37,254 nucleotides of DNA. Origin: Thioalkalivibrio halophilus (GTDB lineage: Bacteria; Pseudomonadota; Gammaproteobacteria; Ectothiorhodospirales; Ectothiorhodospiraceae). Position 1 is the stretch's first letter; every line of letters starts with the position of its first letter. The translations under genes were made by a program, and so were the position numbers. Below, in pieces: positions 5,294-14,788 of this stretch. The notes below the pieces were generated by a model. That model had not been told where the DNA came from, searched no databases, and was given only the letters and a program-made list of their open reading frames with translations. The stretch lies in NCBI RefSeq assembly GCF_001995255.1, contig NZ_MUZR01000027.1:1-37254 (forward strand). Direction: 5' to 3'.

Positions 5294-6186
5294 ATCCGCA
5301 GCACCCGCCGCATCGCGGCACCCTGTTCGAGGAGGCCGCGCGCATCCTGTCCCACGAGGATGCCGGAAGTGGTCAGTGGATCCTGCGGGTGGAGGCCCCG
5401 GAGTGTGCACGGCGCGCGCAGCCCGGGCAGTTCGCCCACATCCAGTGCTCGCCACGCCTGCCGATGCGGCGGCCGCTGTCGATCCAGCGGGTCAACCCCG
5501 ATGCCGGCTGGGTGGAATTCCTGTACAAGACGGTGGGCGACGGCACCCGGGCGCTGGCGGAACAGCCGGTGGGCCGCAGCCTGCAGGTGCTGGGACCGAT
5601 CGGCCGGCCGTTCACGCTGCCCCCGGAGCGGCCGCGGCGCCTGCTGCTGGGTGGCGGCGTCGGCATCCCGCCGATGATCTTCCTCGCCGACCGCCTGCGC
5701 CAGCAGGGCGAGGCGGGCACAACCCGTGCGATCCTGGGGTCCGAGGTCCCGTTCCCGTTCCGCCCGCGGCCATCGCAAGTGCTGTGGCCGGGGCTGCCGG
5801 ACGGCGCCATCGGCACGCTGCCGCTGCTGGAAGACTGGGGGATCTCGTGTCGCCTCACCTCGAAGGCCGGAATTCCGGGGGCGTTCGACGGCTTCGTCAC
5901 CGACCTCGCGCGCGCCTGGCTGGACGGACTGGACCCCGCCGAACGCAGGGAGGTGGAGATCTTTGCCTGCGGGCCGCACCCGATGCTGGAGGCCTGCGCG
6001 GAGCTGGCCGCGGAATTCGACCTGCCCTGCCAGGTGTCGCTGGAGGAATTCATGGCCTGCGCGGTGGGCGGCTGTGCCGGCTGCACCGTGCCGGTGCGCA
6101 CCGGGGAAAGCGTGGCGATGAAACGCGTCTGCGTCGACGGCCCGGTGTTCGCGGCCGCCGACGTCTTCCCCGAACCGGCCCCGTAA
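5290..6186 (+). CDS. pyrK: PyrK-like dihydroorotate dehydrogenase electron transfer subunit (FAD, NAD, 2Fe-2S)
   Basis: The 298-residue product shows a ferredoxin-reductase-type FAD motif (RRPLSI, about residue 61), a nucleotide-binding loop GGGVGIPPMIFLA, and a C-terminal iron-sulfur cluster site with C257, C262, C265 and C281 (C-x4-C-x2-C-x15-C), the arrangement in PyrK. PyrK passes electrons from class 1B dihydroorotate dehydrogenase to NAD. No pyrD lies beside it, and most gammaproteobacteria use a quinone-linked class 2 PyrD, so its partner here is unclear. The 4-base overlap with pyrC' keeps it in the pyrimidine operon. It could instead serve another oxidoreductase of the same superfamily. 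Confidence 0.85.
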   Translation: MNPQHPPHRGTLFEEAARILSHEDAGSGQWILRVEAPECARRAQPGQFAHIQCSPRLPMRRPLSIQRVNPDAGWVEFLYKTVGDGTRALAEQPVGRSLQVLGPIGRPFTLPPERPRRLLLGGGVGIPPMIFLADRLRQQGEAGTTRAILGSEVPFPFRPRPSQVLWPGLPDGAIGTLPLLEDWGISCRLTSKAGIPGAFDGFVTDLARAWLDGLDPAERREVEIFACGPHPMLEACAELAAEFDLPCQVSLEEFMACAVGGCAGCTVPVRTGESVAMKRVCVDGPVFAAADVFPEPAP

Positions 6187-6239: not shown

Positions 6240-7415
6240 CTATTCGGGCGGCTTGAGCTCTTCCTCGCCACCTTCCTCGGCGGCCCCCACGCCCCCGCCG
6301 AAGTTGAGCTTCCACTCGAGGTTGGCGCGCGAATCGGCCTTGCTCAGGGCCTCGTTCAGCATCACGTTGCCCGACTTGAAGAGCTTGACGATCGCCTGGT
6401 CGAAGGTCTGCATGCCGACCGAGGCCGACTTCGCCATGATCTCCTTGATTTCGCCGATCTCCTCCTTGTGAATCAGCTCGGAGATGTACGGCGTATTCAC
6501 CAGCACCTCCAGTGCCGCCACCCGCGAGCCATCCTTCTTCTGTAGCAGGCGCTGGCCGATAATCGCGCGCAGGTTCAGGGACAGGTCCGACAGGATCTGC
6601 GAACGGTGATCCTCGGGGAACAGATTGATGATGCGGTCCAGTGCCTGCGAGGCATTGGTCGCATGCAGGGTGGACAGCACCAGGTGCCCGGTATCGGCGT
6701 AATTCAGGGCCGCCCGCATGGTCTCGCGATTGCGGATCTCCCCGACCATGATCACGTCCGGAGCCTCGCGCATGCCCTCCTGCAGGGCGTGTTCGTAACT
6801 GGGCGTGTCGATTCCGACCTCGCGCTGGCCGATGATCGCCCGCTTGTGCTGGAACAGGAATTCGATCGGATCCTCGACGGTCAGGATATGCCCGGTATCG
6901 ATGGTCAGGCGATGGTCGATCATCGCCGCCAGCGTGGTCGACTTCCCGGTACCCGTCGAGCCGACCACCAGCACCAGGCCGTCGCGGTAGGTCATGAACT
7001 CCTTCAGCACCTCCGGCAGCCCCAGCTGGTCGATGGTGGGCACGGAGCTGCTGATAAAGCGGATGACCATCGCCACTTCGCCGCGCTGGCGATAGACGTT
7101 CACGCGGAAGCGGCCCAGCCCCTCGCGGGTGAGGCCGAAATTGACCGCGGTTTCTTCGTCGAAGATCCGCTCCTGATGGTCGTTCATCATCTCGCGGGCA
7201 ATGCCCTCGGTCTGTCCCTGGGCCAGTGCCCGCCGCGCGATGGGCTGCAGCACGCCATCTACCTTGATGGACGCCGGCGCCCCGGTGAGAAAAAACAGGT
7301 CCGAGGCCGATTTCTGCGCCATCAGCTTGAGATAGGGCTCGATCTGGAGCTGGCGCTTCGCGGGTTCACCGGCGGCCGTACCGTCGGAACCGGTGTTCTG
7401 TGCTTCAGCGGACAC
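6240..7415 (-). CDS. Second PilU-like pilus retraction ATPase (PilT/PilU family paralogue)
   Basis: This is a 391-residue hexameric-type secretion ATPase of the PilT/PilU family: Walker A GSTGTGKST, Asp box TVEDPIEFLFQHKRAIIGQREVG, Walker B VIMVGEIRNRETM and His box LSTLHATNASQALDRIINLFPED. It resembles PilU (GMQTFDQAIVKLFKSG, ALSKADSRANL) more than PilT and lacks the AIRNLIRE element. The start is a GTG at 7415 with GGAGGA 6 bases upstream, overlapping the pilU stop by 11 bases, so it is the last gene of a pilT-pilU-pilU2 transcript. The ends are unusual: a 30-residue polar N-terminal extension and an acidic tail (AAEEGGEEELKPPE). Its separate role in type IV pilus dynamics is unknown. Confidence 0.9.
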   Translation of the reverse strand: MSAEAQNTGSDGTAAGEPAKRQLQIEPYLKLMAQKSASDLFFLTGAPASIKVDGVLQPIARRALAQGQTEGIAREMMNDHQERIFDEETAVNFGLTREGLGRFRVNVYRQRGEVAMVIRFISSSVPTIDQLGLPEVLKEFMTYRDGLVLVVGSTGTGKSTTLAAMIDHRLTIDTGHILTVEDPIEFLFQHKRAIIGQREVGIDTPSYEHALQEGMREAPDVIMVGEIRNRETMRAALNYADTGHLVLSTLHATNASQALDRIINLFPEDHRSQILSDLSLNLRAIIGQRLLQKKDGSRVAALEVLVNTPYISELIHKEEIGEIKEIMAKSASVGMQTFDQAIVKLFKSGNVMLNEALSKADSRANLEWKLNFGGGVGAAEEGGEEELKPPE

Positions 7416-8577
7416 GGAATTCCTCCGGATCGTCTTCCACCGCAATGCCCTCGCCGGTGTCGGCCACCGCCGGGGCACCATCGCGCCGTGCGCGCTCGCT
7501 GTCGAGCTTGATGCGCAGGCGCAGGTCGTTCACCGAATCGGCGTTGCGCAGGGCCTCATCGTAGCTGATCTCGTGGTTCTCGTAGAGATCGAACAGCGCC
7601 TGGTCGAAGGTCTGCATACCCTGCTCGCGCGAGCGCGAGATCAGTTCCTTCATGTCGTGCACGGCACCCTTCAGCATCAGATCCGCCATCAGCGGGGTGT
7701 TGATCAGGATCTCGACGGCCGGGACGCGCCCCTGGTCGTCCTCGCGGCGCACCAGCCGCTGCGAGACGACGGCCTTGAGGTTCAGGGAAAGATCCATCAG
7801 CAGCTGTTCGCGCCGATCTTCGGGAAAGAAGTTGATGATGCGGTCCAACGCCTGGTTGGTGCTGTTCGCATGCAGCGTGGACAGGCACAGGTGCCCGGTC
7901 TCGGCGAAGGCGACCGCGTAATCCATGGTCTCGCGGTCGCGGATCTCGCCGATCAGGATCACGTCCGGCGCCTGGCGCAGCGTGTTCTTGAGCGCGATCT
8001 GGTAGTCGTGGGTGTCCACACCGACCTCGCGCTGGGTCACGATGCTCTTGCCGTGCTGATGCACGAATTCGATCGGATCCTCGATGGTCACGATGTGGTC
8101 CGAGGCAGACCGGTTGCGGTGACCGATCATCGCGGCCAGCGAGGTGGATTTGCCCGAGCCGGTCCCCCCGACAAAGATCACCAGGCCACGCTTCTCCATG
8201 GTGATCTCTTCCAGCTGCGGCGGCATGCGGATGTCCTCGAAACGCGGGATCTCCGAATTGATCACGCGCATCACCATGCCGCTGCTCCCGCGCTGGGTAA
8301 AGACGTTCACGCGGAAGCGCGCAATGCTCGCCAGGCCCACCGCGAAGTTGCACTCCTGATTGCGCTCGAATTCAGCCGACTGCTTGTCGTTCATCATCGC
8401 CCGCACCAGCGCCTGGGTGTGCGAGGGCGTGAGTTTCTGCTCGGTCAGCGGGACCACCTTCCCGTCAATCTTGGCGGCCGGCGGCATCCCCACGGTAATG
8501 AACAGGTCCGACCCGCCCCGGTCCACCAGGGCCTTCATCAGGTCGTGCATGTACTTGATCGCCTTGTCACGATCCAT
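7405..8577 (-). CDS. pilU: PilU, type IV pilus retraction ATPase
   Basis: The 390-residue product matches PilU along its length: GGSDLFITVGMPP at the N-terminus, ECNFAV, RGLVIFVGGTGSGKSTSLAAMIGHRN (Walker A), IEDPIEFVHQHGKSIVTQREVGVDT, the Walker B and His-box segments, and a C-terminal NADSVNDLRLRIKL. PilU assists PilT in depolymerising the pilus at the inner membrane. The ATG at 8577 is chosen because GGAGG lies 6 bases upstream; another ATG six bases earlier abuts that site. It follows pilT by about 57 bases and overlaps the next ATPase gene. This is the conserved pilT-pilU pair of pseudomonads and relatives. Confidence 0.95.
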   Translation of the reverse strand: MDRDKAIKYMHDLMKALVDRGGSDLFITVGMPPAAKIDGKVVPLTEQKLTPSHTQALVRAMMNDKQSAEFERNQECNFAVGLASIARFRVNVFTQRGSSGMVMRVINSEIPRFEDIRMPPQLEEITMEKRGLVIFVGGTGSGKSTSLAAMIGHRNRSASDHIVTIEDPIEFVHQHGKSIVTQREVGVDTHDYQIALKNTLRQAPDVILIGEIRDRETMDYAVAFAETGHLCLSTLHANSTNQALDRIINFFPEDRREQLLMDLSLNLKAVVSQRLVRREDDQGRVPAVEILINTPLMADLMLKGAVHDMKELISRSREQGMQTFDQALFDLYENHEISYDEALRNADSVNDLRLRIKLDSERARRDGAPAVADTGEGIAVEDDPEEFRVR

Positions 8578-8634
8578 GGGCATCCTCCGATTGGCGTGGC
8601 CGCCCCGCCGGGCGACCACGGCGATGGCTCGGTT

Positions 8635-9669
8635 TTACAGGGCGTCGGGGTTCACGGCCTTGCGGCGGGCATCCTCACGGCTGACCAGCCCCTGGGCCAG
8701 CATGTCCTTCAGGCACTGGTCGAGGGTCTGCATGCCGGTTCCGGCGCTGGTCTGGATGGTGGAATACATCTGCGCGATCTTGTTCTCGCGGATCAGGTTC
8801 CGGATGGCCGGCGTCCCCAGCATGATCTCGTGACCCGCAACGCGCCCGCCGCCGATCTTTTTCATCAGGGTCTGCGAGATCACCGCACGCATGGATTCCG
8901 ACAGCATCGCGCGCACCATGTCCTTTTCCGCAGCCGGGAAGACGTCGATGATGCGGTCGATGGTCTTGGGCGCCGAACTGGTGTGCAGCGTGCCGAACAC
9001 CAGGTGCCCGGTCTCGGCCGCGGTCAGCGCCAGACGGATGGTCTCCAGGTCGCGCAGCTCGCCGACCAGGATGGTGTCGGGGTCCTCGCGCAGGGCCGAG
9101 CGCAGGGCCTCGGAGAAACCGTGGGTATCGCGGTGCACCTCGCGCTGGTTCATCAGCGACTTCTTCGACTCGTGCACGAATTCGATCGGGTCCTCGATGG
9201 TGAGGATGTGCCCGTAGTCGTTCTCGTTGCGGTGGTTGACCATCGCCGCCAGCGTGGTGGACTTACCCGAACCGGTGGGGCCGGTCACCAGCACCAGCCC
9301 GCGCGGGTAGTTGGCGATGTCCTCGAAGATCTTCGGCGTGGCCAGGTCTTCCAGGGTCAGGACCTTGGAGGGGATGGTCCGGAACACCGCCGCCGCGCCG
9401 CGGTCCTGATTGAAGGCGTTGACACGGAAGCGCGCCAGCCCCGAAACCTCGAACGAGAAGTCCGTCTCCAGGAACTCTTCGTAGTCCTTGCGCTGACGGT
9501 CGTTCATGATGTCGTAGATCAGGCCCTGCACTTCCTTGTGCTCCATCACCGGGACATTCACCCGGCGCATGTCGCCATCGATGCGCACCATCGGCGGCAT
9601 GCCCGCGGAGATGTGCAGGTCCGAGGCCCCGTTCTTGACCGAAAACGCCAGCAGCTGCGTGATATCCAT
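8635..9669 (-). CDS. pilT: PilT, type IV pilus retraction ATPase
   Basis: PilT powers retraction of type IV pili, driving twitching and DNA uptake. The 344-residue length is standard. Motifs in order are NGASDLHISAGMPP, Walker A GPTGSGKSTTLAAMV near residue 135, IEDPIEFVHESKKSLMNQREVH, Walker B ILVGELRDLETI, the His box FGTLHTSSAPKTIDRIIDVFP and the PilT-specific AIRNLIREN. The ATG at 9669 is preceded by GGGGGA at good spacing. It is divergent from yggS with about 109 bases between starts, the arrangement seen in Pseudomonas. The promoter should lie in that gap, but I see no clear consensus. Confidence 0.97.
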   Translation of the reverse strand: MDITQLLAFSVKNGASDLHISAGMPPMVRIDGDMRRVNVPVMEHKEVQGLIYDIMNDRQRKDYEEFLETDFSFEVSGLARFRVNAFNQDRGAAAVFRTIPSKVLTLEDLATPKIFEDIANYPRGLVLVTGPTGSGKSTTLAAMVNHRNENDYGHILTIEDPIEFVHESKKSLMNQREVHRDTHGFSEALRSALREDPDTILVGELRDLETIRLALTAAETGHLVFGTLHTSSAPKTIDRIIDVFPAAEKDMVRAMLSESMRAVISQTLMKKIGGGRVAGHEIMLGTPAIRNLIRENKIAQMYSTIQTSAGTGMQTLDQCLKDMLAQGLVSREDARRKAVNPDAL

Positions 9670-13898: not shown

Positions 13899-14540
13899 AT
13901 GAACCCGGAACCCGACCTGCTCCTGCTCTCCGGCGGCGTCGAAAGCGCCGCCCTGCTGCGCCGGTGGTGCGCCGAAAACCGCCCCGTCATCGCCACCTGG
14001 GCCGACTATGGCCAGCGCAATGCCGCACGTGAGCGGGCTGCGGTCCTCGCCCTGGCCGAAGCCGAGGGCGTGCGCCTGGAAACCGTGGAAACCGGGGCCC
14101 TGCGCGAGGCGTTCACCCGGCGTGCCGACTGGGTCGGGCATGTCCCGCTGCCGCAGCGCAATCTGCTGATCCTGGCGCTCGCGGTCAATCTGGCCCAGCA
14201 CCACGGTGCCGGACGCATCCTGCTCGCGCTCAACCGCGAGGACGCCGGGCACGGCCCGGGCAGCGGCGCGGCCTTCCTGCAGGGCTTCGGCTCGCTGGCC
14301 GCCCGGCTGGTTCCCGGCCTGTCGGTGGCCGCCCCGCTGCAGGAACTCGGCAAGGCCGATATCATCCGTCGGGGCGCACAGGACGGAGTGCCATGGCGCC
14401 TGACCTGGAGCTGCCTGCTGGGTCAGGAACGCCATTGCGGCCGCTGCCCCCAGTGCCACGCCCGCCAGGCCGCCTTCGCCGCGGCCGACGTCCCCGACCC
14501 GACCGACTACCGCCAGCCACCCGGACCGCAGACACCATGA
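13899..14540 (+). CDS. QueC-like PP-loop protein with altered motifs
   Basis: This 213-residue protein resembles 7-cyano-7-deazaguanine synthase: an N-terminal PP-loop LLLSGGVESAALL, GKADIIRRGAQDGVPWRLTWSC, and a zinc site C172, C180, C183, C186 (C-x7-C-x2-C-x2-C). Two features differ from standard QueC. The PP-loop has Glu (E15) where SGGxDS is usual, and the segment normally containing a DYSGYPDCRP-type substrate motif reads NREDAGHGPGSGAAF. It may therefore act on another carboxylated substrate or have lost activity; it might still be a QueC variant. No queD, queE or queF is nearby. It overlaps the next small gene by 4 bases (ATGA). Confidence 0.75.
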   Translation: MNPEPDLLLLSGGVESAALLRRWCAENRPVIATWADYGQRNAARERAAVLALAEAEGVRLETVETGALREAFTRRADWVGHVPLPQRNLLILALAVNLAQHHGAGRILLALNREDAGHGPGSGAAFLQGFGSLAARLVPGLSVAAPLQELGKADIIRRGAQDGVPWRLTWSCLLGQERHCGRCPQCHARQAAFAAADVPDPTDYRQPPGPQTP

Positions 14541-14788
14541 CCGAAGAAACCCCGCGCCACATCCTCGAACGCCTGGAAATCGCCATCCTGACCGGCGAGA
14601 CCCTGCAGCTGCACTGGGCCGGCCCCGATGACGGGCCCGATGCCGGGCGCGCCTGGATGGGCCGGGTCACGCCGCGCGAGGTCACCGCGGACGACCGCGG
14701 GCATCACTGGCTGGAAGGCACCTGCGAGGGCGAGACCGTACACATCCGCCTGGACCGGATCCGGAACATGCCCACGCCGGTCAAGTGA
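14537..14788 (+). CDS. Small Sm/SH3-fold protein, possibly Rof-like (83 aa)
   Basis: The 83-residue product has the pattern of a small beta-barrel: an N-terminal helix HILERLEIAILTG, then LQLHWAGPD, AWMGRVTPREV, HHWLEGTCEGETVHIRLDRI. The ending and length resemble Rof-type Rho-binding antiterminators, whose C-terminal strands end in xRLDKI, but the similarity is weak and seen by eye only. The ATG overlaps the stop of the QueC-like gene. The 3' end overlaps the convergent nucleotidase gene by 8 bases. Pairing with the QueC-like gene could also mean a shared, unrecognised function. Confidence 0.6.
   Translation: MTEETPRHILERLEIAILTGETLQLHWAGPDDGPDAGRAWMGRVTPREVTADDRGHHWLEGTCEGETVHIRLDRIRNMPTPVK

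Follow-up and report, generated by a model that had tools for sequence, protein, structure and literature searches.

A QueC-family paralogue with an altered substrate loop, and a small partner protein with an invariant C-terminal tail, in Thioalkalivibrio halophilus

The window, a stretch of 37,254 nucleotides that represents contig C27 in a genome of 2.87 Mb with a completeness of 99.96%, carries two overlapping genes on the forward strand, which an earlier note made from the letters of the DNA had described as an altered QueC-family protein paired with a small Rof-like protein. Both open reading frames, 13899-14540 (+) and 14537-14788 (+), were confirmed, as was the overlap that the note had seen. 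It spans 4 bp, an ATGA in which the TGA stop of the first shares bases with the ATG of the second. The features of the locus are:

13899-14540, + strand: QueC-family PP-loop paralogue (P0001, 213 aa); PF06508 match at 2.7e-30, own clade, predicted model with pLDDT 91.5
13929-13946, + strand: PP-loop SGGVES (canonical SGGxDS); Glu in 28/33 and Asp in 5/33 paralogue rows
14139-14162, + strand: HVPLPQRN (canonical VPxRN) with the paralogue-specific His81; Arg and Asn in 33/33 rows
14232-14267, + strand: NREDAGHGPGSG, which replaces the YPDC substrate loop; YPDC Asp and Cys absent in 33/33 rows
14409-14456, + strand: zinc-site segment SC(x)7CGRCPQC (C172, C180, C183, C186); four Cys in 33/33 rows
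14537-14788, + strand: partner, a small protein of predicted Rof/WYL fold (P0002, 83 aa); 4-bp overlap, predicted model with pLDDT 88.1
14765-14785, + strand: invariant C-terminal tail NMPTPVK of the partner; 26/26 distinct sequences

Besides the partner, which starts with MT, the immediate neighbours of the paralogue are TerB and HAD proteins. No CD-NTase with an N-terminal MG is among these immediate neighbours, and no PfkB gene was recognised adjoining the paralogue. Elsewhere in the window, three successive PilT/PilU-like ATPase genes, read by eye, lie in tandem on the reverse strand (6240-9669). Crude counts between the window and a close homologue in strain ALJ24 (L054) gave a pN/pS of 0.29 for the enzyme and 0.037 for the partner, which points to purifying selection on both genes and to a strong one on the partner. 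Because of this selection, and since the motifs recur in 33 rows (30 distinct), we do not regard the locus as a product of chance.

For the active site, we compared 33 paralogue rows (30 distinct) with 25 canonical rows (23 distinct), using the residue numbers of E. coli QueC (PMC13329287) placed by motif. Every paralogue row keeps Y35, Q37, R99, N100, K165 and the four zinc Cys, which in the window protein are spaced C(x)7CxxCxxC and are the four (C172, C180, C183 and C186) that had been pointed out before. Likewise, the replacement of SGGxDS and of NAVDYSGYPDC of canonical QueC by SGGVES (residues 11-16) and NREDAGHGPGSG (residues 112-123) could be verified. D133 and C134 of YPDC are found in 0/33 paralogue rows as compared to 25/25 canonical and 2/2 Cap9 rows, and Y131 is kept in 18/33, with Gly in the window protein. 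The pattern YxQxHxxE is absent, as H39 is kept in 0/33 paralogue rows and His is present in 23/25 canonical rows. The Tyr that follows the first zinc Cys, which we take to be Y189 in the E. coli numbering, occurs in 25/25 canonical rows and is replaced by Leu (30 rows), Ile (2) or Met (1) in the paralogues. The PP-loop Asp is Glu in 28/33 paralogue rows, still Asp in 5/33, and Asp in 25/25 canonical rows. The PP-loop Glu is therefore typical of the paralogue clade and not diagnostic, the diagnostic loss being that of YPDC and of the said Tyr. In addition, the paralogues have fixed positions of their own, among them His81, Leu89 and Pro184-Gln185 (30/30 rows compared); His81 occurs in less than 30% of the canonical rows, and CPQC is found in 30/30 paralogue rows compared.

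In E. coli QueC, an exchange of Y35, R99, Y131 or Y189 to Ala inactivates the enzyme (PMC13329287). The Tyr of Cap9 stacks on the 7-deazaguanine, whose Watson-Crick edge (N1/N2) is read by the Asp; in QatC, both reader positions are Thr (PMC13279940). The substrate of the paralogue is probably not 7-carboxy-7-deazaguanine (CDG). The altered site argues for a different chemistry, as the earlier note had supposed, though not for the thiolation that it also offered: no Cys is invariant other than the four zinc ones, and nothing else that we saw hints at sulfur transfer. The predicted model of P0001 (pLDDT 91.5) is compact and in its fold resembles Cap9 (Z 22.3, 1.9 A, 176 aligned residues), QueC (Z 21.6 and 20.2) and QatC (Z 18.9). 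In the PDB, Cap9 (9nto) is the best match in both sequence and structure, tied with QueC in the latter.

P0001 scores 105.9 bits (2.7e-30) against Pfam QueC PF06508, above the gathering cut-off of 22, and 82.5 bits against TIGR00364, below the curated cut-off of 150.3. We looked for QueC, QueE, QueD, QueF and TGT in the genome of the window: a canonical queE and a canonical queC lie side by side on contig C7, and QueD, QueF and TGT matches were found on further contigs, so that, of these five, none other than the paralogue itself lies on the contig of the window, in agreement with the earlier note. Because of the true queE-queC pair elsewhere in the same genome, the window gene is a paralogue; the case that the genome holds no second queC, in which this gene would have been the working enzyme, does not apply. 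A canonical queC coexists in all 27 paralogue genomes of the order. In two genomes of the window's genus, paralogue and canonical queC are only about 7 kb (G030, C130) and 4 kb (G028, C85) apart, and in G011 there is another QueC-family gene, of a third and more distant type (C4:5842-6399, 113 bits).

A scan of genome contigs that started from eight aligned paralogues resulted in 46 loci, of which 35 were assigned as paralogues by motif (L054-L085, L089, L093 and L095; L093 is partial); the remaining 11 hold canonical or other QueC-like proteins and a short paralogue-type fragment (L097). In a tree of 62 rows (57 different), the 33 paralogue rows (30 distinct) split off at 100/99, and this branch was recovered in 100% of 200 bootstrap trees. 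The phylogeny that the earlier note had proposed thus places the paralogues in a supported clade of their own, apart from canonical QueC; Cap9, represented by just 2 long-branched rows, is found elsewhere in the tree. The paralogue clade spans proteobacteria and Sorangium. Profile searches detected the paralogue in 27/47 genomes of the order at E 3.7e-76 or better and canonical QueC at E 2.9e-44 or worse, without overlap of the two ranges, and in 15/369 genomes and 11/271 genera of the class sample at E 2.1e-74 or better. A mobile or defence origin was considered and rejected: the records matched by tblastn of P0001 (156 from plasmids, 89 from phages) are all below 60% identity, and among the matches listed (25 and 12, respectively) identities range from 27 to 35%, the annotated ones being ordinary or PreQ0-pathway QueC. 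PADLOC recognised the enzyme as QueC (4.7e-21), with weak matches to QatC (0.0011) and TRIP13 (0.019), and gave a weak WYL match for the partner (0.0029).

The C-terminal tail of the partner, N[LM]P[TM]P[VLT]K-stop, is present in 26/26 distinct intact sequences from the scanned loci, a set for which N[LM]P was required and the other positions were free, and the same tail is found in 20/20 partners from a profile search of paralogue loci that demanded no tail; the two sets share some sequences. Fifteen tail-less relatives from other genomes have variable C-termini, and tailed and tail-less forms are homologous (hhalign 99.4%, E 2.7e-21). Apart from the partner itself, the scan of the loci for other tail-bearing proteins gave just two unlikely frames. 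In the predicted model of P0002 (pLDDT 88.1), residues 80-82 lie in a short strand within a block of pLDDT 88 to 91, and the tail may be a folded element and not a free arm. The predicted fold agrees with the Sm-like fold suggested earlier. It is closest to residues 112-191 of the WYL-domain regulator BrxR (VIA Z 12.2), with a Z of 7.7 for Rof/YaeO, and several of the WYL-domain regulators closest in fold have been solved with ssDNA or DNA. A search of the P0002 sequence against solved structures found no credible relative (best E 0.17, an antibody chain). For the partner, which the earlier note had called Rof-like, Rof/WYL-like relative is a better name than Rof. The family comparisons gave the following: i) none of the ten members of the partner profile (A4) matches PF07073 (Rof) up to E 1, and the five tail-less relatives scanned stay below its cut-off, four with E-values of 1e-5 to 1.4e-4 and one with 0.02; ii) 7/10 A4 members match PF13280 (WYL; best 7.2e-5), the window protein not being one of them, and of three tailed members scanned singly two match below the cut-off and one does not; and iii) in the alignments, the partner does not keep the Rho-contacting positions that we take to be Cys10 and Tyr13 of E. 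coli Rof. In Rof, C10 contacts Rho and an effect of Y13A is described (PMC11018626).

The partner profile A4, built from ten partners, matched 52/369 class genomes. Twelve of these match to the last model position (81), and no other genome scores as well (E 2.4e-18 or lower, with 7.3e-13 for the next one); in the other 40 the matches end at position 79 or earlier, and none of the 18 sequences read has the tail. All 12 tail-bearing genomes fall within the 15 paralogue genomes of the class, given that the enzyme and partner samples of 369 genomes each, which share handles, are presumably the same set. The chance of this co-occurrence is 4e-20 if genomes are independent, and about 8e-10 if counted by family (6 within 8, with the highest family label, 173, used as the number of families). 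The tailed partner adjoins the enzyme in 8/12 genomes and is unlinked in 4/12, about 156 kb away in G079 and on another contig in G231, G086 and G338. The class paralogue genomes without it are G215, G180 and G294, and G215 is also the one of the 40 genomes with a tail-less match that has the paralogue. Within the order, the partner occurs in 18/27 paralogue genomes (tail visible in 17) versus 0/20 genomes without the paralogue, 34/47 genomes including all 20 negatives having been searched by profile and all 47 with one sequence; three of the 20 negatives have tail-less relatives only. In G024 the partner is split by an insertion, and in G032 it is cut by the contig end ahead of the tail. The 14 genomes reached via named loci, five of which look like repeats of genomes already counted, comprise four with the partner and ten without.

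The small gene is therefore tied to the enzyme, often in an operon, but the idea that it might always accompany it did not hold up, as the tailed form is missing in 9/27 (order), 3/15 (class) and 10/14 (locus) genomes of these overlapping sets. The dependence is one-way: in the class and order samples, the tailed partner is found only with the paralogue, and many paralogues are without the partner. Since the paralogue genomes G019, G186, G079 and G299 hold both tailed and tail-less forms, the tailed protein is a separate gene there and not the local Rof. A comparison of 15 enzyme carriers with and 15 without the partner (L070 assigned from its clade) revealed no enzyme column that cleanly tracks the partner. 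In Thioalkalivibrio sp. ALJ21 (L055, about 5721-5990), the partner is broken by a MITE-like element of about 270 bp with inverted ends next to an intact paralogue, and stretches of this element recur within L066 and L067.

Gene neighbourhoods were read by eye at 15 loci, at 13 loci, and at five loci with an unlinked partner plus five partner-less loci; the neighbour names were likewise recognised by eye, except TerB, DsbD_2 and HAD of the window. A neighbourhood with TerB, HU-like and DsbD_2-like genes recurs in several gammaproteobacterial loci (e.g. L073, L074, L164, L165 and L167), and YkgJ-like and HspQ-like genes are each found in a few. Among the loci read, no recurring neighbour is shared with those of Burkholderiales, Sorangium or Acidithiobacillus, and a third gene conserved across the clade was dismissed. 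In family f151 (L168, L170 and L171), the paralogue lies beside phosphate-transport (pst)-like genes, as read by eye.

Five of the 14 locus genomes are without canonical QueC, namely four MAGs with Burkholderiales/Betaproteobacteria labels (G047, G050, G052 and G055, with loci L076, L079, L081 and L084) and the complete genome of Sorangium So ce26. G050 has an extra weak QueC-family match of 27.9 bits in a 359-aa frame, as compared to canonical scores of about 250. In the four MAGs, QueF and TGT are present, QueE does not exceed a weak radical-SAM level (best 3.4e-8), and three are without a PTPS (QueD) match; perhaps these organisms salvage preQ0, or the MAGs have gaps. Such absences are moderate evidence at best, because the MAGs come without completeness figures and a PTPS match can also be missing where QueC and QueE are present: G051, G057 and G058 have QueC and QueE matches and none for PTPS, which makes QueD absence weak evidence. 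A further genome, G053, has canonical QueC and no QueE above 2.6e-5. In Sorangium cellulosum So ce26 (G054, L083), the paralogue is the sole PF06508 (QueC-family) protein next to QueE (2.1e-81), three PTPS and TGT matches and no QueF, a gene set with which the use of CDG in this organism would be compatible. QueE was found in 5/5 partner-bearing genomes tested.

Considering the paralogy, the intact ATP and zinc sites, the lost CDG-reading Asp, the one-way co-occurrence and the invariant tail, our best explanation, to which we assign a probability of a little under 40%, is a ligase of QueC fold, neofunctionalised and no longer acting on CDG, that captures and modifies the C-terminal tail of the partner. 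With the ATP-pyrophosphatase and zinc core kept, the enzyme should, by analogy to the chemistry of the family, still adenylate a carboxylate. Where the partner exists, its tail (NLPTPVK-COO-) would enter the active site and be modified in one of two ways: i) the side chain of the tail Lys could accept an activated small acid, which would be closest to Cap9 with its protein N-terminal amine, or ii) the tail carboxylate itself could be activated and then amidated or conjugated. We favour tail modification because a terminus that is conserved up to its last residue and occurs only together with one enzyme, linked or not, resembles a substrate or docking tail. There is precedent for such contacts, since Cap9 acts on a protein N-terminal Gly, QatC is proposed to act on a protein N-terminus (PMC13279940), and the C-terminus of TtuB, a small carrier that is absent in some organisms, is bound by TtuA, a PP-loop enzyme (PMC7138817). 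Tail modification would mirror Cap9 and QatC at the opposite end of the protein. However, the partner cannot be the sole substrate, as many paralogues are without it and the ALJ21 partner is broken with the enzyme intact; the one-way dependence implies that in many lineages the enzyme has another substrate, or partners that were not recognised. Tentatively, then, we may be dealing with a housekeeping, chromosomal, non-deazaguanine branch of the QueC fold that modifies the tail, at its terminal Lys or carboxylate, of a dedicated Sm/WYL-fold protein.

Sensing or docking is almost as likely as tail modification. The enzyme could amidate or ligate a free small acid other than CDG, and the partner, its tail docked on the enzyme, would sense the product or be an allosteric subunit instead of a substrate; we regard this as a possible reading of about a third of the weight. 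It would explain why the enzyme occurs without the partner and not the reverse, as one-way dependence suits a regulator or accessory protein, and the nearest folds to that predicted for the partner are those of WYL-domain regulators, of which several were solved with ssDNA or DNA. Nevertheless, a Lys fixed at the final position in 26/26 sequences exceeds what most docking motifs need, and no pathway neighbour is conserved throughout the clade.

A carboxydeazaguanylation as in Cap9, by which CDG would be joined to the partner via its C-terminal Lys, is unlikely. Although Cap9 (9nto) is the nearest solved relative, the spacing YGQ(x)5E is as in Cap9 (PMC13329287) and QueE in all five partner-bearing genomes tested would permit a link between partner and CDG, the YPDC Asp and Cys are lost in 33/33 rows, four MAGs have the enzyme with neither canonical QueC nor QueE above background, and the tree does not group the paralogues with the two long-branched Cap9 rows. 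We also consider it improbable that the Sm/Rof-like partner brings an RNA whose base the PP-loop enzyme adenylates and modifies. PP-loop relatives modify tRNA and Sm-like folds bind RNA, but no added RNA-binding domain is apparent in the compact 213-aa model, and the invariant protein terminus would be left unexplained. A preQ0 synthase isozyme, which would perform the usual QueC reaction as a second copy, is very unlikely: it would agree with the same fold and ATP/zinc core and with the status of the paralogue as the only QueC-family protein in So ce26 despite QueE, PTPS and TGT matches, but we rejected a canonical isozyme on residues (in 33/33 rows YPDC Asp/Cys are lost, as is the Tyr that follows the first zinc Cys), tree and second queC (27/27 paralogue genomes of the order). 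Least probable of all is a decaying, functionless duplicate beside an unrelated Rof-like gene, for which the lost motifs and the patchy distribution (15/369 genomes) could speak, given ATP and zinc residues that are invariant in 33/33 rows, signs of purifying selection and co-occurrence with the partner even if unlinked.

Before Cap9 and QatC revealed protein-directed roles in phage defence, QueC was viewed as a tRNA enzyme. Modification of the partner tail would be a third repurposing of the QueC fold, in ordinary chromosomes and with an invariant C-terminal tail as the handle. Besides, a good Pfam QueC match can mislead, with such genes being wrongly taken for queuosine enzymes. The PF06508 family was surveyed in PMC13329287, whose main text names neither Thioalkalivibrio nor SGGxES and in which we found no description of clade, partner or tail; Cluster 1 of that survey may include the paralogue clade. 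Cluster 4, with YGQ(x)6E, CH(x)5CxxCxGCxK and a PfkB neighbour, was rejected, as the paralogue has YGQ(x)5E and CPQC. In the open-licence PMC literature, we found no report of the enzyme-partner pair among the matches listed.

With canonical QueC, the paralogue shares the fold, the PP-loop, YxQ, RN, K and the four zinc Cys; unlike it, it is without the YPDC Asp/Cys, His39 and the Tyr that follows the first zinc Cys, stays below the TIGR00364 cut-off, forms a separate clade and does not lie beside queD or queE. On the partner side, the small protein is homologous to Rof-like proteins such as the Rho inhibitor Rof/YaeO, but has no PF07073 match and a unique tail. The TtuA-TtuB system of tRNA thiolation is alike in that a PP-loop enzyme binds the C-terminus of a small protein (PMC7138817); in contrast, TtuB is ubiquitin-like and thiocarboxylated and TtuA has an Fe-S cluster, whereas the Cys here are of the zinc type. 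QatC of qatABCD resembles the paralogue in the missing base-reading Asp and in having a protein partner, but differs in its size of about 400 aa (versus 213 aa) owing to large extensions at both termini, in Thr at both reader positions and in a partner with a conserved N-terminal Gly instead of a conserved C-terminus; P0001 scores 19 bits against NF041925 (QatC; cut-off 280). Cap9 of type IV CBASS (PDB 9nto) is likewise compact, with YxQ(x)5E and a possible protein partner in common, but it keeps YxDC, which the paralogue lacks, and acts on the N-terminal Gly of a CD-NTase, whereas the partner described here starts with MT or MKP and is conserved at its C-terminus, and the locus is chromosomal.
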